From the NCBI GenBank assembly GCA_903813345.2, contig CAIIXF020000006.1, forward strand, positions 2,110,001-2,174,000: 64,000 bases of DNA. Direction: 5' to 3'. Each line of letters begins with the position of its first letter. Positions within the stretch are counted from its first letter, which is position 1. This document shows, piece by piece, positions 14 to 54,600 of the stretch. Origin of the DNA: Owenia fusiformis (Eukaryota > Annelida > Polychaeta > Sabellida > Oweniidae). The translations under genes and the position numbers were made by a program. The notes under the pieces are model-generated. The model was given only the letters and a program-made list of their open reading frames with translations, ran no database searches and was not told the origin of the DNA.

Positions 14-3000
14 ATGGCAACACCCGGGGGAACAACACAGACTTCAAATGATGAAATTCTACAGCAAATTGTGAGTGCAGTTTAAAACCATTTCACTTAT
101 GTAATATATTCTGTTATCTTAATTCATTTTGCCTTATTTTAAAACGAATCCCTCCCACAGGGGTTTGTATAGAAGATAGGATAGAACCCTCGTACATGTA
201 CATGTATGTCTTCTAAGTCTTCAATCTTTAGAAAGGGAAACCGGAGTGACTTATGAGGAAAAATAAAAAATATTTTATACTTAGAATATGTCGAATCATT
301 TCAATAATATATCTACATGTATATTGAACATATAAACTAACTAGGGGGGAAAATAACAGAGCAATCCATCGACTAGTTACTGAGAAAGGACCATGTGCAG
401 TATGGCAAGTGATTTTAGACAGTCATATCTTTCACCATGAGTACTTTCTGCCCATAAAAACAATGTTTTTTTTGTTATTATTATTTATTATTGAAAATAC
501 TGGACTCGTTTCTATCTCCTGATAGTACCTAGTTTGTCATTAATTGATAAAAAACAATGCAAAAGAAACGTTAAACTGTCGATTAAATTATGATAATGAT
601 GATATAGGTCAAAAATGGTTCTCATATGATCATGTTTACTATGCGCATCAATTGAGAAAGACATTAAATAACTTTTTTTTCTTAATAAGTAACTCCGGTT
701 TCCCTTTCAAAAGATTGAAGACTTAGAAGACGTACGAGGGCTCTGCCCAATCTTCCATACAAACCCCTGTGATCCCTCCTGAAGATTCTATATCATGTCT
801 CAGTATACCCCCATGGGACATATTGTGAATGTATAAAGTAAACATATCAGTGCTCTAAGCTATTCGAAAAGTGTCTATTGAAGGGCCGTTTGAAGTTTGA
901 AAGGTATACATACACAACGAAAAGATCGTGTCTGAATGATTTTAGTTAGGGGTTGGAAGTACCATTGATAAATCCTTTCATGAGCCGCATTTAAGTAGTT
1001 AACAATCAACAATTGTTTTAATTTTTTAGCTGTATGCATTCCCCAACGCTGATCCAGCAGTGGCACTTGACATAATTGAATCCAATAAGGAACAAGTCCA
1101 AGATGGTAGTGTATTCGGTGTAATAGCTGAAATATACGGTGTACCAACGACACGTGACGAAGCGTCAACGTCTATAAATCAAACAACTAATACAAGTGCT
1201 GTTAATAATGTAGTTCTAAGACAATGTGTTAATGCTGTTGAACAGTCAACCAAGGATGATGCACAAGGAAACACTCAAATTGAGGAAACCCCAGGAAGAA
1301 CACAATATGTTGCGAATGCACCCTCACATCATGATATACTCAAGGATATCACTCGATCTTACTTTTCCCAACAGCATTCTTTGCATGGAGTTGACAACGT
1401 TACCTTCGATTTTGAAGAGGAACAAAGCATTGATGACAATGTAGACTTTAATCATAAGGATAAGGATGTTACAGTCATAAATCATGATCAAATGGGAGGT
1501 GGCAAAGTTGAAATTGAGGAAGACAATATTGGCACTGTGTCGCCCGCTAGAGTTACTATAGATGGAGGTATAAGAGAAGTATATTGTAAAAGTTCGGCTT
1601 TGGAAACATCTGAAATGAGAGAAAATGAATCTATGGACGACACTGACACACACAATCGCTGTAAACTTGACAAACATTCCAAACCACCTCTGGAAGATTG
1701 CAAAAGAGATGATGACAATGGCCATACAGTTGGGGTTGCTGATGACGATGACATTGATACACATGATGTTGTTCATTACAAAGATGTATCCGAATTCGTA
1801 ACCGACTCAGTGGAGAGTATACACAAATCTGAACAACTGGTTTCCGAAACCCATCACGGCAATGATAACACTTCCATTGTAAATGCTAACACGATGAAAT
1901 TAATTGACAATGCCAAGTTCGATAATCAAGAATGTTGTATTAATTCTTTAAAGGTAGCTGATAAACATTTAACTCGTCTTGTTGAACATTTAGAGAGTGA
2001 AAGAAATCAGACTGGCTTAAACGATGGAAGAATTATACCCGATTGTAATTTGACACCAGCTGTGAAACATGATCAAAAGCTAGTTAATAATAACACTCAC
2101 GATAATATAACACGTGCTATTGATATGTCTGGGGACCCTCGAAAGAGCCCTGTTCAAAATAATACTTTTGACCTTGATGTAACTTGCCTCGTTGAAGATA
2201 CAGAGAGTGAAGGAGCGGATGATGAGGTTGATGATGCACGAGGACGACGGGTGAGAGGAGAGTCTAGCGACGTGATACCAGACACACAACTTATTCCAAT
2301 AGAATATGATTTAAATGAAATAAAGAATAAAAACGAAGCTTATAAAGCAACGGAATATTCTCTGGACATTGATGGGACGTATGATGATAATGAAGAATAT
2401 GACGACGATGCTGAAAAGTTTCTTTTAGGGGAAACCGATTCAAGTGATTCTGAGAAAGGTCCCAACTTAAACTCTGGATTGCACAAACTAGAGGTTGATA
2501 ATAATCAAAATTCAAAAATGTTTTCTAATAATGATTCGGCTACTATTAACAAAGTATCTAGTGATACTGATGGGCTGATTGCAAATGATACCGATATAAG
2601 TGGCTCTAATGAAACTATTTTAAAGTATGTGGAACAATATCCCATGAACGGTACTCTAAATCTTGATGTCCAGAAACCAAGTATTGAAAGAGATGAGGAA
2701 GATTCAGACAGTGACATAAGCGAGAGTATTATATGCCCAACATCTTCACAGAAACCTCCAGTTAAGCAAATGATGAAAGATCCCTATGATCAACCTGAAA
2801 GTGACAAGCATCCAGACAATTCTAACAACAAAGTGAACGACAAAAGTGTTTCCGATATTGATAACTTATCACATGATGTCAGCTCTTGTGAAGCAGTTGT
2901 AAATGCAACGGACCATAAAACACTCATTAATTTAGGAAGTGGTTCTGGAATACAAGGTGCTATAAATCCATTAGAAACAAATTTTGCTCGGACTAGAACT

Positions 3001-5730
3001 GATCATACACCTAGTCAATCCCAAGCCGATTGTCCTTCAGAATATGAGAAACCACAATCCTATGAATATTCTGAATACAGTATTGATTTGAACAGTTCTT
3101 GTGATGATGAAAATTCAAACAAAGGCATAGCAAGTAAAGATAATGAAAATTCGTACAAAGGCACAGCCAGTAAAGATGATGAAAATTCGTACAAAGGCAC
3201 AGCCAGTAAAGATGATGAAAATTCACACAAAGGCACAGCCAGTAAAGATGATGAAAATTCGTACAAAGGCACGGCCAGTCAAGATGATGAAAATTCGTAC
3301 AAAGGCACAGCCAGTAAAGATGATGAAAATTCGTACAAAGGCACAGACAGTAAAGATGATGAAAATTCATACAAAGGCACAGCCAGTAAAGATGATGAAA
3401 ATTCGTACAAATGCACAGCTAGTAAAGATGATGAAAATTCGTACAAAGGCACGGCCAGTCAAGATGATGAAAATTCGTACAAAGGCACAGCCAGTAAAGA
3501 TGATGAAAATTCGTACAAATGCACAGCTAGTAAAGATGATGAAAATTCGTACAAAGGCACGGCCAGTCAAGATGATGAAAATTCATACAAATGCACAGCT
3601 AGTAAAGATGATGAATATTTACACAAAGGCACAGTCAGTAAAGATGATGAAAATTCATACAAAGGCACGGCCAGTCAAGATGATGAAAATTCATACAAAT
3701 GCACAGCCAGTAAAGATGATGAAAATTCATACAAATGCACAGCTAGTAAAGATGATAAAAAATCATACAAATGCACAGCTAGTAAAGATGATGAATATTT
3801 ACACAAAGGCACAGTCAGTAAAGAAGCAGGAAGTACAAAACTGATTGAACCTTCTTCTTCGAACAGAGATGTGGAAGGCGTAGCTAAACATTCACTGGGA
3901 GCAATAACAAGGCTGGATGGTGATGAAGATCCAGTGTGTCAAGTCAATAAGTCTGCACCATTAACAAAAAGTAACCAAAATGATCAGAAAAATGAAGCGA
4001 GAACATCATGTTTTAATCGAATCCCAATATCACAAAATATTTTAGCAACGCTGAAAGAACAATCAAAGTCTAACAATCTCAGTTATGATAAATTAAACAG
4101 CATGGTTCTTGGGAAAGCGGGGGAAAATAACCATAGTGATCAACCAAATTGCAAAGGACCAAAAAAAGTAAGTGAAGCTAGTTCTACAGAATCAAGGTAT
4201 CCGATAGTTGCTCCTCAAAGAATAGTCAATACCCAGATGTCGATTATAAACTATTTTGGTAATGGAGGAATAACCCCTTCGCAATTAATTCAAAAATGTA
4301 ACAACGACCAACATAAAATAACAGATTATTTCTATAAGGAACCTGCAGGAGATGCAATCAGTTGTCATAAACCATGTCAAAGTGAAATCCAATTAACGTC
4401 AACAACAGCTGGTACAAAACACCAAGAAAGCATATTAAACAAGGCCTTCACGAAAAAGGATACCAAACGACCCTTAGTCTCGTATGATGTAAGCTCAGAT
4501 AGTGAAAATAACTCAAAAGGTGGCAATGATACAACATTGGCCTCTAACCGCCCAATGGATACATCGAGTTTTGTAAAAGACTCAAAGAAATATGACTGTT
4601 GCACTACAAATAATCAACAACAGATTGCGACTGATGTTGAAAATATGACTGAAAACGCATCGGATCTAGAACTGGAAGGGCAAACTAAGCGTCGACATAC
4701 CTGCTCCAGAAAACGCAAAGTAAGCTGGGAAAATACAAGTTCATCGGAATTTGAAAAACCAATAGGCAAAAACATTACAAAATCGAAAAAGCGACATCGT
4801 CGTAAAAGAAAAAGAAATGAAACATTCTGCCCATTTGCACTCGGTTTTATGCCAGGCCAGGCAAATCGAAGGTCAGTTCCCAAAAGTGTAGCAAGTAGTG
4901 AGACAGACCATATTAGTACTAACCCACTTAACTTGGCATGTGAGGAACAACATGACAAAGAATTTGATGAAGATATGGAAGAGGGGGTGTCAAGGAAAGA
5001 TTCGAGTACCGGTGAACGTACGTCCAATGGCAGTTATTTGGATATTGATGGTAGTGACTTTGGAGGAGGTACATGTAGCTATGAAGTGCATGTGAACAAT
5101 GAATATGAAATAGGAAAATCTGATCACAATAAAGATGCTCCCGAGAGAATAAATGAGGGATCTGACACGGATATATTTGAAACCAGTGAGACACGAGAAT
5201 CAAATCGTTTCAGAACTAGAACTATACTAAAATGTTACTGTTCTGATTCCGATGATTGTGATTGTAACTTTCTTGGTCCAATTTCTTTAGTAATACCAAA
5301 TAAAGATGGCGCATGTGTCAATACAGTACTACCTCGGCAGACGAAAGGAATTATCAAACCACCACAATTGAATCCTTATGTTAAGATTGAAGACGTTGAT
5401 GGCGATTTAGATGGCGCTCGGTCCATATACATGCCATCGGGAAGCAATGCATCATATTCGCATCATTTTCAGGATGACCTTGATATCGAAGCAGAGCCTG
5501 ATGGATCGTCAGATGATTCGGACTGCACGGTATTTGATAGTAAGTTTCGGAAAGAAAGCCCTAAACAAGATATTGGAACTGGGTTTGATCCAAACAATAG
5601 ACGCAGAGCAACTAGGCCTTGTTATCAGGTTCAGGATTCCAGCAGCCCAACTACCGATTCTGATAGTGATGACGAGACGTTTTCTTTAGACAAAATGGGA
5701 CTACCTGCACTAAATAATTTTAAAAGATGA
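14..5730 (+). CDS. Large acidic nuclear-type protein with tandem PIP boxes, family not recognised
   Basis: Two exons are seen: 14-70 (ATG at 14, donor GTGAGT at 71) and 1030-5730 (acceptor TTTTTTAG, phase 0, stop TGA). The product is about 1585 aa if ATG 14 is the true start; the frame is open to the window edge, so the start may lie further upstream. Residues about 16-60 (ILQQILYAFPNADPAVALDI onward) look like a small helical ubiquitin-binding (CUE/UBA-like) segment, a weak inference. Most of the chain is low-complexity, rich in D, E, S and N. A 12-residue repeat fills residues 710-949. Two canonical PIP boxes, QMSIINYF (1088-1095) and QHKITDYF (1113-1120), suggest binding to PCNA, the DNA sliding clamp. 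Basic clusters near 1239 (KRRHTCSRKRK) and 1270-1283 (KSKKRHRRKRKRNE) suggest nuclear import. A Cys-rich patch (CYCSDSDDCDCNF) lies near the C-terminus. A role in DNA replication or repair is inferred from motifs only. Confidence 0.8.
146..785. mobile_element. Foldback (long inverted repeat) element in intron 1 of the first gene
   Basis: The sequence at about 146-251 (starting GAATCCCTCCCACAGGGG) returns inverted at about 685-780, sharing the CACAGGGGTTTGTAT, CTTCTAAGTCTTCAATCTTT and GAAAGGGAAACCGGAGT blocks. The spacer holds no recognisable transposase. Part of the spacer (about 590-660) resembles 61490-61560, so this family has at least one other member in the window. Confidence 0.75.
3100..3819 (+). 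repeat. Coding minisatellite, 20 units of 36 bp
   Basis: Twenty head-to-tail 36-bp units encode the consensus KDDENSYKGTAS, with variants Q for K at position 1, C for G at position 9, and the divergent unit KDDEYLHKGTVS. The unit is a multiple of three, so copy number can change without breaking the reading frame. The variant order (a G-type, Q-type, C-type block recurring near units 8-14) suggests multi-unit slippage or unequal exchange. Confidence 0.95.
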
Positions 5731-8257: not shown

Positions 8258-8647
8258 TCATTGTGGACACTGCGCCATTTGTGAGCTTGAATAATGCTGG
8301 GACATGTGATACTCCTGTGCTTTTAGTCTGAGATTAGTAATGCTATTTCCTACAATATTTGGAGAGGTAGTATTGTATTTATTGTTTGCAAGAGCACAAC
8401 TCGATAACGTGTTTAGATTGGCTGTTGATGACGTATTAATCGTCTGCGTTCCTGAATAGGGGGCGCTGGTGGTTGAGGACGGCCATGTCAGGTAATCTCC
8501 AGTTATTGGACTAGGGCGAGCTGTGATTGGTTGATCTGAGAGTGGAGGACTTGCGGATTCAGAAGAATGGGAATAAAGTGGACTCCGCTGAGAGAGAACA
8601 TTGCGTTCGTTACGTCTGAATTTGGCTCTCCTGTTCTGGAACCAAAC
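8258..8647 (-). CDS. prrx: Prrx exon 3: recognition helix, linker and OAR domain
   Basis: The acceptor TTTTGTTTTGTAG precedes [15 protein letters not shown]. The exon then encodes a Ser/Pro/Thr-rich linker with GDYLTW, and a terminal OAR motif ([16 protein letters not shown]) 15 residues before the TGA stop. It supplies 129 residues. Confidence 0.95.
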   Translation of the reverse strand, partial: VWFQNRRAKFRRNERNVLSQRSPLYSHSSESASPPLSDQPITARPSPITGDYLTWPSSTTSAPYSGTQTINTSSTANLNTLSSCALANNKYNTTSPNIVGNSITNLRLKAQEYHMSQHYSSSQMAQCPQ

Positions 8648-26107: not shown

Positions 26108-29100
26108 ATGGCTCGTATTAAACTACACGGAGACTACGTTTCTCAACCTTGTAGAGCTCTGGCACTTGTGATGAAAGCAAATAATATCGCCTATGACTTT
26201 GTCTCCATACCTTTGCTACCAATCTCTGACCGTGAGTATTGTGTAATACAGTATATTTATCATAGATAAAATTAAAATAGGGCAAAGTTCATTTTATCAT
26301 AAAGTGACAAATTGCACGGGAGCCACAAATTATGGACCGAAAGGGTCTATCAGGGATGCTTCAGTCGTTTTTTGACCTCTTATATCTTATTCCGTGGCAG
26401 GTGGCATTAAAAATAACGTGGTAATTCACCTGTTCCCAAGGAACATTGAAGTTTGGTAACTTCGGTATCGTCAATGACAACGGAATCTGAATTTGAAATA
26501 ATTTACAAAGACAACGGCATATCTGTACAGTAATTTTAACTTCCGGCCTAACATGATGACATTAAATATAATATTTTTTATTAAATCATATTTATGGAGA
26601 AATGTACATGCACTAGTACAGTGAATGGAAATGTACCAATATTCTCATTCCTAATAGTTTGATCTCATTAATAAAATATAATCCTTTGGTTTAGCCTTAA
26701 CCAAAGCAGGATTTCATGTCTTCATAAGTAAAGTAGAAACTGTCTTCATAAGTAGATGTTTCTTTCTCTTACTGGGTACCTTCCCGTTTGGCACTATGCG
26801 TGTACATTATATTTGTTTTTATATATAATCCAGCCTCAAGAAAGGCTTTTTAAAAAAGTCTTTATTTCTTTGTCCCATTCAGAGGGTCCCATTTCATTTG
26901 CAGAATTCCTCATTTTCAATTTGAAAAGATTTAAAGAAGTGGTCATTTGTTCCCGACATAATAAAATAATCATGAACAGCTGATCGTGAATGTATCACTT
27001 TAATTTTAAAAAATCATGACAGCATAGCTCTTTTCCGAGGGCTCATAATTTGTTTCAGACTGGATCTACATTTTGTAAACAGAGCCTTCATTTTAAAAAA
27101 ATCCACTAAAAATGTTTAAATGCTGAAGTGACCAATGAATATCAAGCCTCTGCTCCTGGAATGATATGATATAAATATAAAATTTGTTTGCAGGAAGTTG
27201 TAAACCAGAGGGAAATGCCGCAGCCGTTAATCCATTTAAATGGGTGCCTACTCTTGAAGTGGAAGGCGATGGATGCATTTGGGAGAGGTAATACGGTACA
27301 TTCAGTTTATCATGTTCACGACCCCTCTAATAGAGGTTGTGAAAAATGTAAGACTGTCACATTTAGAGGCTTATTTTATTGGCATCAATTCTATTTGTTA
27401 TAGACAGGTTGGTTTACCGATGGGTCTTCGGATATACTTATTTATCCCATACTCGGACGTGTTACGGGTACATAAAGCCGGTTTGTAAAAACTTATATTT
27501 TCATCAGCGGGCAGATTTAGCTTTACGTCCCGCTCCGAGCGGGCAGATATAGTATATCTGCCCGCTACGTCATAATCGCCGCTCGCATATTTGTTCATAA
27601 TTTGTAACGTTCGCGTAATGACTGTAAACGACAATGGAGAAAACACAGACAATCGGGATCTGTTTGATGGTTTAAAAAAGGGAAAGAGCATCCACTTAAT
27701 CAATCAAAATTCGAGAAAATAAATGTGGGAATATTTGAGAGAACAGGAAAATCCGCCCACGGCCAAGAAAACAAAACTGGACATGAATATTCTAAAATAT
27801 TTCCACGATTGAACAATGTAAACCAGATGACCAAGATTGGTATGGGATAAACATATTATCCTATAGTCGGTTCAAGAGGCCCTCGGGCAAATATATTATA
27901 TTAGCCTCGGGATAATCCCAATATCCTGAACCTCATACAGGATAATCTCTATATAGTTTTATATTTTACTAGTTTTGTTCTGAAAATATGGGACGATGAC
28001 ACAATCGTAAAAACGAGTTCTTAATTACCTCCTAGGACAACTGGACAAAGGATATACATGTACTTTCACTTTTTAATTTCATTGGATATTAAGGAAATGC
28101 TGTTATTTTGAAATAGGATATACTTTTTATACTTTACACAAACACCATATGAAAAAAATTTCCAAAGATTTTCTTAGGCAGATACATGTATATTTCAAAA
28201 AACAATATACTCTATTTCCCTATTATATCAATCATGTAATGACAGCTGGTAAATTCTAACCAATCATCCACCCTTTACCGTCCTCTAGTTCTGCCGCACT
28301 GCAGTACCTGGCTGAGATGGATGGTGTACCCGAACACTGGTACCCCAGAAGTGGGAGGGCAAGAGTCATGGTGAACACATACTTAGCCTCACATGGATCA
28401 GACACAAGAAAAAATGCATCGGGATACTTTGTCAGGAGTGTAAGTTTGATACCCTTGTGCTCAAGATGTTGATATATATTTTTTGTAAATTATGCGAAAA
28501 ATTACATACACAGTTCAGCACCAATGAATTGAATTTTTGCAGCTTTCCAACCAGTAGAACTGTATTCTGCAGTTTACCTTATCTAATTTGCCAAATAATT
28601 GATACATCAAGAAATAAAGTGACGTCTGTAAGCGTACTCTCATTGTGAATACTTGGATATTAGTCCAACCAACACGAGTGGTGCCATCTATATTTCCATA
28701 TTTATTGCAACTGATTAATATTAATAGAACATTTCTTGATTTTCATTTCATATAATGTTTTTACTTTTGTTTTACAGTACGTAGGAAAATACTTCAATAT
28801 GAGTTTTACCGAGGATGAAGTTAAGGAAATACGTGAGGGATTTGAGAAACTGCTCGACAAACTGGAGACAATCTGGTTGAAGGATGCCACCTATATTGCA
28901 GGAAGTGACATATCCATTGCTGATATACATTGCATCACAGAGCTCACTCAGGTTGGAACGACTGGCTATGACATGGTGAAGAACAGGCCCAAGTTGAAAG
29001 CGTGGATGGAACGCGTCAAGGACAAATTACAGCCACATTTTGATGATGTATGCAAGAAGCCTCTAGCTACATTTGCAGAGGATTTCATGAAATTACAAGC

Positions 29101-32100
29101 GTCGAAGAATCAAGAATCAAAGAAGGAAAATAAAAAAAGCTTGAAATGCAACATTAAACTACACGGAGACTACGTTTCTCAACCTTGTAGAGCTCTGGCA
29201 CTTGTGATGAAAGCAAATAATATTGCCTATGACTTTGTCTCCATACCTTTGCTACCAATCTCTGACCGTGAGTATTGTGTATACAATTATATTTATTATA
29301 GAAAATATGAAAACATGGCAAAGTTTATTTTATCATAAAGTGATTTGCAAGGGAGCCAAAAATTATGGATCAAAGGGGTCTGTTAGGGATGTTTAAAGTT
29401 TTCTTGACCTCTTATCCCTTAGGCTTTGGAAGGTCTTAAAATGAATGTCATACTTCTGATCAGAGAGATCTGCATGTTGATAATAATTGTGTAAGTTTTT
29501 ATGATTTTAATTATCCATGATTGATAAAATTAACACATTTCATAGTTTTATGTGAATACTTACATATTATGGTAGAATGCAACAAAGCTCAAAATAAAAA
29601 TATTTCAATAAAATTTAGAATTTTTTCTTCAACTCTCTTTAAATGTTTGGAACTACTGTAAAACATCTCTAATGGAACAAATTGAAAATTCAGCTATTGG
29701 AATAGGGAAACTTGGTAAAACTGTACATCATACTGTTTTCAGAGGTGTAGTAATAGGTAATAAAGTAATAGTAATAGTAATAGGTAACATCAACGTATCA
29801 ATTTTGATTTAAGAAATCATGAAAGTTGGCTTCTTTCCGAGGGCTCATAATTTGTTTCAGACTGAGTCTACATAGGGTAGCCAGAGCTTTCATTTAAAAA
29901 GTTCCCCCAAAATGTTTAAATGCTGAAGTGACTAAAGTTTATCAAACCTCTGATATTAATATAAAAAATGTGTTTGCAGGAAGTTGTAAACCTGAGGGAA
30001 ATGCCGCAGCTGTTAATCCATTTAAATGGGTGCCTACTCTTGAAGTGGAAGGCGATGGATGCATCTGGGAGAGGTAATACATTCAGTTTATCATGTGCAC
30101 GACCTGTCTAATAGAGGTTGTGAAAATGTGATTCTAACAAATTTTAAGGCTTATTTAATCAGCATAAATTCTGCAAAATCATTAATTTTTGACAAAATGG
30201 TTTGCCGATGGGGGCTCCGGGTATATTCTAGATATATTTTTTGTATTTTACAACTTTTGTTCTGAAAATATGGGACTAATATATATAAATAATGTTCGCA
30301 TTAAATCGTTGTCAATCAGTGACCATTGCATAAAGGACAGTGTTATTTACAGAATGTGTTCAATAATTGGTTTGAGATAAAAACAACGTTGAATACAGTT
30401 CGCCATATCTGTACTAATCCTTTAAAAAACAGCAAATGGTTAACTGGAAAAACAAGAAAGATTTACTTAAAACATATACAGGGTGTCAAATAAGTCCTGT
30501 CCCCCCTCTACAGCCAAATCCAAGACATTTGGTACCAAGTGTGATATATCATTGGAAAGGTCTTCAAAAGTTACGTTGATTAGCATATATCCGACACATG
30601 TCAATCAATCTCACAAATTTCTACATTGTATCAATTGAGGTGACCATAGGCCTAGAAACATGGCAATTTGGCGTATTTGGCAGGATTTTAAGAATCGGGT
30701 ATAAGAAAGATCTCAAATGACCAAAAGATGACTAAGTATGTACATGACAATGAATTTAACCAATTTCTGGATAGGGTTAGATGTGTTAGAAAAAAGAGGT
30801 GCAAGGAAAGTGTTGAAAACCTTTTTGTAACAAGTGGAAAACGAAAAAGATTAACTTTTTGAGCCCATATTCTTGTCATTTTGACGCAAAAAAGCTGCTT
30901 AAAGGAGGGTACGTTAACTATAAAGGACATCATAAAATATAGGTAAATGTTATCCAAAATACTTGAGAGTTGGTGAGTTAACATATTTTTTGATGATCTT
31001 CCCAATGGTATATCACACTAGGTACCGTCTATTAAGGTTTAAGCTGTAGCAGGGGGGACGGGACTTATTTGACACCCTGCATTTTGACATCATTTATTCT
31101 CTATTTACCTTCGTAATCATAGTATGACACCAGTTGGCACATTCTAACAAATCATCATTTACTTTCCTCCAGCTCTGCCGCACTGCAGTACTTGGCTGAG
31201 ATGGATGGCGTACCAGAACACTGGTACCCCAAAAGTGGGAGGGCAAGAGTCATGGTGAACACATACTTAGCCTCACATGGATCAGACACACGAAAGAATT
31301 CATCAGGATACTTTGTCAGGAGTGTAAGTTTGATTCTCAAGATGATAATATTTCTTTGATCCTTTAAAATGTTCCCATCGATGTTTTGCTATATACCTTA
31401 TTTGTTAAACCGTCGAAGTCTCATTCAATTGGACTTTATTAGAATTGTGTTTTTACCACAAACGGGTTACATTTTTCTTCTATTTGATCAAATATTTTAA
31501 TTTTTTACAATTTCCCAACCAGTACAACTTTTTTACAGTTATTTTTTTATCTTATATAATGGCGTACTCAAGAGAAAATCAAGAAAAAATGTGACTTCTG
31601 TTAGTTAATCCCGTTGTGAATACTAGGATAGCCCAACCAACACGAGTGGTGCCATCTATATCTCCATACTAATAGCAACTGATCAATTAATCGAACCTTT
31701 CTTTAGGTTCATTTCATATAATATATTTTATATTTCTTGTTTTACAGTACGTAGGAAAATACTTCAATATGACTTTCACCGAGGATGAGGTTAAGGAAAT
31801 TCAGGAGGGGTTTGAAAAACTGCTCGACAAACTGGAGACAATCTGGTTGAAGGATGCCACCTATATTGCAGGAAGTGACATATCAATTGCTGATATACAT
31901 TGCATCACAGAGCTCACTCAGGTCGGAACGACTGGCTATGACATGGTGAAGAACAGGCCCAAGTTGAAAGCTTGGATGGAACGCGTCAAGGACAAACTGC
32001 AGCCACATTTTGATGATGTTTGCAAGAAACCCCTTGCTACGTTTGCAGAAGATTTCAAGAAATTCCAAAAGTCAAAGAATCAAGAATCAAAGAAGGACAA

Positions 32101-32131
32101 TAAAAAGAGTTCCTCCTGTCAAATACTGTAG
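26108..32131 (+). CDS. Tandem (two-domain) theta-class glutathione S-transferase
   Basis: Seven exons, 26108-26231, 27194-27287, 28289-28439, 28778-29267, 29980-30073, 31173-31323 and 31748-32131, sum to 1488 nt and encode 495 aa, about twice a usual GST. GSTs conjugate glutathione to electrophiles in the cytosol. Each half has the theta-type VSQPCRAL with its catalytic Ser (residue 12 in the first half), the VNPFKWVPTLE segment with cis-Pro, the glutathione-binding ESSAALQYL, HWYP, and the C-terminal ISIADIHCITEL / RPKLKAW motifs. Intron phases 1, 2, 0 are the same in both halves. The fourth exon runs from the end of domain 1 straight into domain 2 with no stop and no in-frame ATG at the junction. 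ATG 26108 is the first Met after an in-frame TAG at 26057. Both halves look intact, so a functional two-domain enzyme is plausible. Confidence 0.9.
27538..27566. repeat. Perfect 29-bp palindrome in a GST intron
   Basis: Fourteen bases, AGCGGGCAGATATA, are followed by one G and then their exact reverse complement. It is GC-rich at the ends and sits in AT-rich intron DNA. Another GCGGGCAGAT word occurs just upstream at 27507, suggesting the core of a small decayed inverted-repeat element. Confidence 0.85.
28778..29267 (+). CDS. GST fusion exon joining domain 1 C-terminus to domain 2 N-terminus
   Basis: The acceptor TTTTACAG precedes YVGKYFNM and the exon ends at donor GTGAGT in phase 1. It encodes the whole helical C-terminal part of domain 1, a Lys/Glu-rich tail (SKNQESKKENKKSLKCN), then IKLHGDYVSQPCRAL of domain 2. 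In the last exon of the gene the matching tail ends at a stop codon (KKSSSCQIL, stop), which marks where the ancestral single gene ended. Confidence 0.92.
30479..31079. mobile_element. MITE of the CAGGGTGTC terminal type in a GST intron
   Basis: The left end CAGGGTGTCAAATAAGTCC and right end GGACTTATTTGACACCCTG are exact inverted copies at the tips, with weaker inverted similarity for about 100 bp inside. The left side is preceded by TA (30477-30478), as for Tc1/mariner-type elements. No intact transposase is seen. Confidence 0.85.
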
Positions 32132-51600: not shown

Positions 51601-54600
51601 TGAAATCAATATCGGTTATGGATCAACTTCAAAAGAACATGACGTCAAATTGAGAGAAATGGCCAATGGTAGGTTCTCAATATCGTCATGGATCAACTTA
51701 TGAAGAGCAGGTCAAATTAAGGGAAATGGCCAATGGTAGGTAATCAATATCGTCATGGATCAACTTCAAAAGAACATGACGTCAAATTGAGAGAAATGGC
51801 CAATGGTAGGTAATCAATATCGTCATGGATCAACTTATGAAGAGCAGGTCAAATTGAGGGAAATGACCAATGGTAGGTAATCAATATCGTTATGGATCAA
51901 CTTCTAAAGAACATGACGTCAAATTGAGGGAAATGGCCAATGGTAGGTAGTCAATATCGTTATGGATCAACTTATGAAGAGCACGTCAAAATGAGGGAAA
52001 TGGCCAATGGTATGTAATCAATATCGTAATGGATCAACTTATGAAGATCAGGTCAAATTGAGAGAAATAGCCAAATTAATGCTATGTAATCAGTATCGTT
52101 ATGGATTAACTTATGAAGAGCGGGTCAAATTGAGGGAAATGGCCAATGGTAGGTAATCAATATCATTATGGATCAACTTTTGAAGAGAATGTCAAATTGA
52201 GAGAAATGGCCAATGGTAGGTAATCAATATCGTTACGGATCAATTTATGAAGAGCAGGTCAAATTGAGGGAAATGGACAATGGTAGTTAATCAATATCGT
52301 TATGGATCAACTTATGAAGAGCAGGCCAAATTGAGGGAAATGGCCAATGGTCGGTAATCAATATCGTTATGGATCATCTTATGAAGAGCAGGTCAAATTG
52401 AAAGAAATGGCCAATGTTAAGTTATCGATATCTTAAGTTCCAAAATGCAAGAGCATCTCGGAGAAATACTATATAATAAATTGAGTAGTATTACAGTCCG
52501 GTTAGACACACAACTTACGTTTCATTCAGGGCATATCAGTCAAACTATCGATGTCCTCTAATACCAAGAACCATTCATAAACACCTGTTCCAACAATGTT
52601 ACATCTTCGACTTCAAATGGAATAATGATGTGAAGGTGAAATAAATACGAATGTGTTATAGGTGTGATGAAACAGACTGATTCCAAAGAAGGAAGTGTTG
52701 GTGTACTGCTTCCACAAGATCACGATGACGAGTCATGTGCAACAGATGATGCAAACAAACGGCCTTGCTTTGCCGCAGGTAAAAATGCAATTCATTATTC
52801 GAAAACACTATCATGTCCCCAATCTACATGACTTCTTGTGTGTCACATTGGAATATTTGTAAAATGTTTAGTTTTATTTTTGCAATTATTGTGATTGCAG
52901 GAGACATTCGGGTAAATGAGCAGCCAGGTCTTGCTAGTATACATACGATTTGGTTAAGAGAACACAACAGGATTGTAACCTCGCTTCGAGCAATGCATAG
53001 TGCCTGGCCAGATGAAATCATATTTCAGGTACCAAATATATTATTCCTTTTATTTACTAGAATAGTACCATCAATAATAATTAATTACATGTACAAACTA
53101 GAGGTGTCAAGTATTAACCGGTTAACCGGTTAACCGCCGATAATGCCTTGACCGGTCTGTGTTTTTATGGGCGGTTAGTTGACCGTGTATAATTCTGTGA
53201 TTTCCCGCGCTTATTTTGCATGCTAATCCGTTTGGTTTTATGGTGTCAGTTTCACGTAAGCTACTCATACATGTCATAAGTCCTATAACTCCTTACAAAC
53301 ATCCAATCAGCAACTTTAATCCCTGCCATATTGCTTTCCCGCGCTTACTTTGCATTTTAATCTGTTTGTTTTTCAAGCGTCAGTTTCATGTGAGCTACTC
53401 ATACATGTGATAGGTCCGATAATTCCTTACAAACATCCAATCAGCAACTTTAATCCCTGCCACATTGCTTTCCCGCGCTTACTTACATAGAATAGAGTAA
53501 AGCTTGACGAACGTAAAAAAACGCCGATATATCATTTTTTCCAATTTGTTTCAACTTTCAAGATCGAAAATGAAGATTTCACTTGAAATTATCAGTTCAA
53601 ATTTCCCGCCGGTTAACCGACTTTAACCGGTAAAACCCCCCGGTTAACCGGTTAATGCTCAAGCGGTTAATTGACACCACTAGTACAAACCATACTGTAA
53701 ACATACAAAAAATTGAACAGTCACTGTTATTAATTTGAAGACTGATTTCTATGATCAAGTCAAGAGTCAGTACAGTAGTAAATGTAAGAGAACGTATTAC
53801 AATATTTTTCCCTTTGTGTGTTTTCAGGAATCCAGGAAAATAGTAGGAGCTCTTCTACAACACATAACTTACAATGAATGGCTTCCGATTATATTGGGGC
53901 AGACAGTGATGGTCCAGAATGGTCTCACTCCATTAACATCCGGGTATTTCAGAGGATATGACGAAGCAATTGATCCAACCATTGCTAACGTGTTTGCCAC
54001 AGCAACGTTCCGGTTTGGACATTCATTAATTGATGATCACCTGGTACGATTAGCTGATATAGCAAATACCTCAGCATCTAACTTCACAAACTTACAACTT
54101 AAGGACACTTTCTTCAACCCTAAATCTGTTTATGATTTTGACAATGGTGGATGCGAGAGCATTCTCAAAGGGCTTGCTAGTCAGGGAGCACAAACCGTGG
54201 ATAGGTTCATCAAGGGTCAATTGACCAATGAGTTGTTCACAGATGGTCACATGAGTCTTGATCTTGCAGCTCTCAATATACAAAGAGGAAGAGATCATGG
54301 TCTGCCAGGTAAGAGAATACTGTAGAATCATTTCAAACACACCATATCCTTTCAAGGAAAGTGATAAACTCTTGTGTTTCTCAAAAGAGATGACATTGTT
54401 TCTGGCTAGAGGTTAGCGTAATGATCTTATACTTTCGGTATCAAACACACAATGTGTGTCATCCTTTACGTGGTCAAATAAGCAACTGATCGACTAGAAT
54501 ATTTGATTGGAATGGGTTATTGTTGTAGGATACAATCTGTGGAGAGAGTACTGCAACCTTCCCCGTGCTACTGCTATTGATGAGCTGGCTGAAATACCAC

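Follow-up and report, generated by a model that had tools for sequence, protein, structure and literature searches.

Glutathione transferases (GSTs) usually work as dimers, each made of two separate chains. The question raised by the present locus of Owenia fusiformis is whether a single gene joins two theta-like GST units in one chain and, if so, how this gene arose and what it produces. In the window (the whole stretch of DNA that was analysed, 64,000 nucleotides), the gene lies on the plus strand at 26108-32131 and is composed of seven exons, giving a 1488-nt CDS, 495 amino acids plus the stop codon and a predicted mass of 56.05 kDa for the fused GST. All of its introns (6/6) have a GT donor and an AG acceptor, with phases 1, 2, 0, 1, 2, 0, so that the single 495-residue frame from seven phase-compatible exons proposed in the preliminary description is upheld. 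The exons are the following:

26108-26231, plus strand: exon 1, with the start codon and the N-terminal part of GST unit 1 (VSQPCRAL)
27194-27287, plus strand: exon 2 of unit 1 (WVPTLEV)
28289-28439, plus strand: exon 3 of unit 1 (SSAALQYL)
28778-29267, plus strand: exon 4, with the unit 1 C-terminal domain, the Lys-rich linker, the junction and the exon-1-like start of unit 2
29980-30073, plus strand: exon 5 of the spliced gene model, equivalent to exon 2 of unit 2
31173-31323, plus strand: exon 6 of the spliced gene model, equivalent to exon 3 of unit 2
31748-32131, plus strand: exon 7 of the spliced gene model, equivalent to exon 4 of unit 2; it contains the stop codon

Other open frames were observed in the window. 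Positions 1030-5730 (plus strand) hold an acidic open frame of 1566 amino acids, presumed to be a large exon, with an array in which a 12-residue repeat such as DDENSYKGTASK occurs many times. The open frame at 8258-8647 (minus strand) has what we take to be a paired-type homeobox end and an OAR-like motif; that at 53717-54325 (plus strand) resembles what we take to be an animal haem peroxidase.

The presence of two complete GST domains in one frame is borne out by Pfam, where three families for the thioredoxin-like N-terminal GST domain and three for the helical C-terminal one exceeded the cut-off, each over two stretches of the 495-residue protein; the NCBIfam models, which are prokaryote models, gave no match to the protein at cut-off. 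We consider it highly probable that a gene encoding two fused GST units is real. Among solved structures, human GSTT2 (1ljr, 7.8e-24) and GSTT1 (2c3q, 3e-22) come closest, followed by delta GSTs (best 7.9e-16), and theta is therefore, in agreement with the preliminary description, the best class label on the basis of these structure matches. The human proteins match a unit over about 200 residues, with an aligned SQP-R motif and an aligned E-S glutathione-site motif; however, these theta chains, of 244-266 residues, have a single domain, whereas the fused GST combines two units with a polybasic CaaX-like terminus. The Ser region and the glutathione site are kept in both units, as had been described, with VSQPCRAL at residues 11 and 256 and ESSAALQYL at residues 72 and 317. 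The Ser of VSQP, found in both units, aligns with the Ser of VSQP/LSQP in 1ljr and 2c3q, and we assume it to be the catalytic Ser. The earlier suggestion of two different active sites is not supported by the comparison of the units: 231 of 239 residues are shared, and none of the eight that differ lies in the glutathione motifs, which are identical. Four of these eight fall at 93-142, in the C-terminal domain, and a small difference between the substrate pockets of the two units is conceivable from their positions.

The theta-like family of this genome provides the frame in which the two units can be placed. The search of the 498-Mb assembly (525 contigs) gave 52 exon matches, which correspond, among the best candidates, to the fused gene and 15 other loci (L003-L017). 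In a tree made from the last exon only (111 columns; of its 14 inner branches, three are well supported), unit 1 and unit 2 group together in a clade of their own (support 100/99), which the C12 and C7 loci adjoin (88/84). The C7 paralogue (L004) has the same four-exon plan and an intact frame of 233 amino acids, with 182 (unit 1) or 183 (unit 2) of 229 residues identical; it differs from the fused gene in having one domain and an end in ...FKESK, without a tail. The dS between the units (0.23) is lower than that of either unit against this intact single-domain gene (0.56-0.58).

The C12 locus (L003, C12:28961500-28967500) was observed to contain, at 2992-3524 of the locus, an in-frame stop in the last exon of a theta-like GST, together with tandem arrays (91 bp x3.1 and 130 bp x2) that cover exon-3 sequence; from these features it is likely a pseudogene with a partial-exon minisatellite. 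Separately, a search with the GST_C profile listed 35 matches in the genome, with pairs about 6-7 kb apart at C159:14847-20754 and C5:27450967-27458283, which are possibly tandem genes of another GST class.

About 3 kb of the fused gene, starting at codon 4 of exon 1 and reaching almost to the end of the final exon, is duplicated in tandem within it. The match between unit 2 and unit 1 begins at 29153 and 26117, respectively, and extends to 32105 and 29135 (near the ends of exons 7 and 4); the repeated unit is thus without the first three codons (MAR) and without the stop, and its junction lies inside exon 4:

29136-29152, plus strand: junction stretch of 13 to 17 nt, according to the alignment used, which separates the last clear match to the 3' end of unit 2 from the codon-4 match to exon 1 (29153)

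The Lys-rich stretch of unit 1 (NQESKKENKKS) is the present linker. Reading through the junction (...KKSLKCN, then IKLHGDY) meets no stop, and this part of the preliminary description stands; its statement that there is no in-frame start between the domains does not, as ATGs occur at 29087 and 29207, the latter in the exon-1-like part and downstream of VSQPCRAL. When the genome was searched with 28895-29267, 11 matches were obtained and, among these best candidates, only the fused gene locus covered the whole query: the exon-7 copy accounts for query positions 1-245 and exon 1 for 259-373, with 13 junction nt unmatched, and the other matches are partial and at other loci.

The 20 nt that follow the last clear match (SLKCNI of unit 1 against SSSCQI of unit 2) agree at nine positions in register, and the gapped alignment of these ends is no better than that of shuffles (1331 of 2000 as high). 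We therefore did not accept homology of SLKCNI and SSSCQI as proven, and the loss of a CaaX end from unit 1 is a guess only. A multiple alignment of 3' ends with L003 and L004 did not decide whether the junction stretch stems from the former end of the gene. Likewise, a one-step internal duplication and a duplication of the whole gene followed by deletion of the spacer are indistinguishable here; in the second case, part of the divergence between the units could predate the fusion.

How the two units have diverged bears on whether the locus is a true and functional gene. Their coding exons align over 718 nt with no gap and differ by 1-7%, whereas in their introns 75-82% of the aligned bases are identical (18-25% differ), with 290, 362 and 106 gapped columns, and a second alignment gave some intron stretches down to 34-59%. 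One intron of unit 2 also contains an element for which blastn found no match in the intron of unit 1:

30476-31082, strand not assigned: MITE-like element of 607 bp in the intron separating exons 5 and 6, with inverted ends of about 94 nt that are 81% alike

This contrast makes an assembly join improbable. Indeed, two alleles, or two separate genes, falsely joined by the assembly would have to account for an intron divergence much greater than normal allelic divergence, for an element in one unit only and for a frame kept across a join that lies inside an exon, in a window with no N; moreover, the best candidates scored in the 498-Mb assembly included no near-identical copy without the fusion. 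An artefact of this kind is very unlikely, and a haplotype or assembly join was rejected on the intron divergence, the one-intron element and the failure to find a second locus among the best candidates.

The same contrast between ungapped coding exons and heavily diverged introns argues for selection on both halves and against a dying gene. The coding parts of the units differ at 38 of 717 nt (dS 0.218, dN 0.017, ratio 0.078), and both units are under purifying selection: when 38 random changes were simulated in 5000 runs, they gave a mean of 27 amino acid changes (minimum 16, against the eight found) and introduced a stop in 77% of the simulations. That the fusion is a recent pseudogene might be suggested by the C12 locus, whose in-frame stop indicates that decay occurs in the family, but the low dN/dS, with no stop and no gap, leaves this the least credible of the explanations considered.

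When changes were polarised over 229 codons, with the C7 paralogue taken as the outgroup, 15 were assigned to unit 1 and 16 to unit 2, with six undecided, an even spread that likewise gives no support to two different active sites. The unit-2 branch carries six synonymous and two nonsynonymous changes in exon 4, and again six and two in exons 1-3; the corresponding numbers on the unit-1 branch are seven and four for exon 4, and four and none for exons 1-3. Three residue changes are polarised to unit 1 (132, 227 and 229), two of them at the end of the linker, where the undecided residue 231 also lies; this cluster (227, 229, 231) would fit a freed linker. Exon 1 and its copy (26117-26231 and 29153-29267) differ at only one of 115 positions, compared with 3-7% for the other exons, and have fewer synonymous differences than exon 4 (one in about 27 sites against 17 in 68; Fisher p 0.019, a single post hoc comparison). 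Local gene conversion at the 5' end is a possible cause of this similarity.

The preliminary description opposed a fusion to two transcripts; the phases of the introns also allow other products. The exon sets 1-2-3-7, 1-5-6-7 and 1-2-6-7 are all in frame and each would encode an intact GST of 250 amino acids with the CaaX-like tail, so that phase matching permits the skipping of one unit and such one-unit splice forms, which the preliminary description did not include, are possible alternatives. It could then be proposed that the locus makes mostly ordinary 250-residue GSTs, through any of these three sets, with the fusion as a minor product. The four nonsynonymous against seven synonymous changes of exon 4 on the unit-1 branch are in line with this proposal, being looser than in the pairwise comparison (about 0.14 raw per site, against about 0.085). 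However, exon 4 would then be mostly idle, and yet it shows, against its copy, a dS of 0.31 and a dN of 0.027 (ratio about 0.085) with no gap or stop. As exon 4 contains no stop, it could be translated, among the forms considered, only in the fusion or in a transcript that keeps intron 4 (stop at 29336), and its constraint counts for the fusion. A mainly single-domain output is thus improbable, and the two-domain chain is probably the main product.

Production of two separate proteins was considered around the first of the internal ATGs:

29087-29089, plus strand: in-frame ATG (Met227), 5' of the junction, where unit 2 and the C7 paralogue (L004) have Lys

This ATG would start a complete second GST unit, from a promoter inside unit 1, and the end of the first protein would come from intron retention or from polyadenylation close to the junction; besides the in-frame ATG, the retention stop at 29336 and an AATAAA at 29129, just 5' of the junction, can be quoted for it (the equivalent AATAAA of unit 2, at 32099, lies within the coding end). 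Nevertheless, the context of the ATG is weak (TTCATGA), Met227 is a change of unit 1, given the Lys of unit 2 and of the C7 paralogue, and polyadenylation near the junction would leave an mRNA without a stop codon. We regard two proteins as very unlikely, nearly as much so as an assembly artefact, and retain the fused chain.

The fused GST ends with a feature that is new relative to the preliminary description:

32078-32131, plus strand: C-terminal extension of 17 residues, NQESKKDNKKSSSCQIL, plus the stop codon; polybasic, CaaX-like and absent at the 15 other theta-like loci

This extension resembles a polybasic-CaaX prenylation signal, as judged from its residues. Its end, CQIL, fits the loose C-x-a-X pattern with Gln at a1, and is one short match in one gene. 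For comparison, we took all stops of the six frames of the window preceded by at least 20 open codons (2073 stops): C-x-[ILVM]-X precedes 20 of them, 95 have at least four K/R among the 12 residues that come before the final four, and the stop of the fused GST is the only one where both are found. When the last exon of the other theta-like loci was followed to its stop, none of the 15 had a Cys four residues from the end, assuming no further exon. Seven stop right at the matched end (L003-L007, L009 and L016) and six stop 1-7 residues past it (L008 and L010-L014); for L015 and L017, where the matches ended earlier, the stops lie 17 and 16 residues on. Additional, earlier stops are found inside the match in L012 and in mid-exon in L003.

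Ras-like proteins bind membranes with the help of polybasic stretches, and Leu as the last residue favours geranylgeranyltransferase I. Prenylated Ras/Rap small GTPases share with the fused GST a Lys-rich stretch followed by a terminal Cys-x-aliphatic-Leu; they are, however, unrelated to GSTs, and prenylation of the GST tail is only predicted. We found no prenylated GST in the open-licence literature, among the matches listed. Prenylation of the tail is a serious candidate, to which we give slightly less than an even chance.

Taken together, we propose with a probability of about two in three that a theta-like GST with a Lys-rich tail underwent an internal duplication of about 3 kb to give a GST-linker-GST pseudo-dimer, possibly lipid-anchored. 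The theta-like GST would first have gained its Lys-rich C-terminal extension, and the tandem duplication with the limits given above would have followed. A single transcript, with one start and one stop, would then encode a GST-linker-GST chain in which the old tail of unit 1 serves as a flexible Lys-rich linker. The two units, with a glutathione site in each, would most likely pair within the chain as a pseudo-dimer, and the tail of unit 2, ending in CQIL, would be a substrate of geranylgeranyltransferase I and tether the enzyme to the membrane. The sequence itself shows the gene structure, the duplication, the purifying selection on both units and the lack of such a tail at the 15 other loci; the single transcript, the intramolecular pairing, the catalysis and the prenylation are inferred. 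It is plausible that the covalent chain fixes the GST dimer, and we put intramolecular pairing of the two units at even odds. The more specific scenario, in which a prenylation tail was gained before a two-tailed dimer became a one-tailed covalent dimer, so that the product is a membrane-tethered pseudo-dimer with one K-Ras-like tail, is rather doubtful; if true, it would mean an altered strength of membrane attachment as well as a fixed subunit pairing.

Natural tandem GSTs are already known in trypanosomatids, and the fused theta GST is a further variant. According to PMC4138524, TDR1 of Leishmania is a trimer with two GST domains per subunit, and PMC5342303 describes Tc52 of Trypanosoma cruzi as having GST activity and two domains of similar size. 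In PMC11732047, by contrast, two Pfam domain terms are meant and not a tandem protein. The likeness is that of a natural chain with two GST domains, which for the fused GST is known from the gene model and Pfam. The differences are that TDR1 (4AGS) is tabulated among Cys-GST structures in PMC4138524, whereas the motif of the fused GST has Ser, and that TDR1 and Tc52 come from protists, whereas the fused GST comes from an animal and has near-identical units and a young duplication. As the two units group together within the theta-like family of their own genome, in a tree of its loci, and differ at a dS of 0.22, the duplication appears separate from those of TDR1 and Tc52. Among the matches listed in the open-licence literature, no animal theta tandem GST was found, and no title on annelid theta GSTs was relevant.

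The locus indicates that a single internal duplication can yield a bidomain enzyme with compatible phases, from which single and double products are both possible. If the CaaX-like tail is used, a GST of the soluble type would have acquired a lipid anchor, a route that we did not find for GSTs in the open-licence literature, among the matches listed. Finally, a covalent tandem of near-identical theta units that is under selection, and young enough for its origin to be followed, would offer a natural test of what the exchange of subunits between GST dimers is for.
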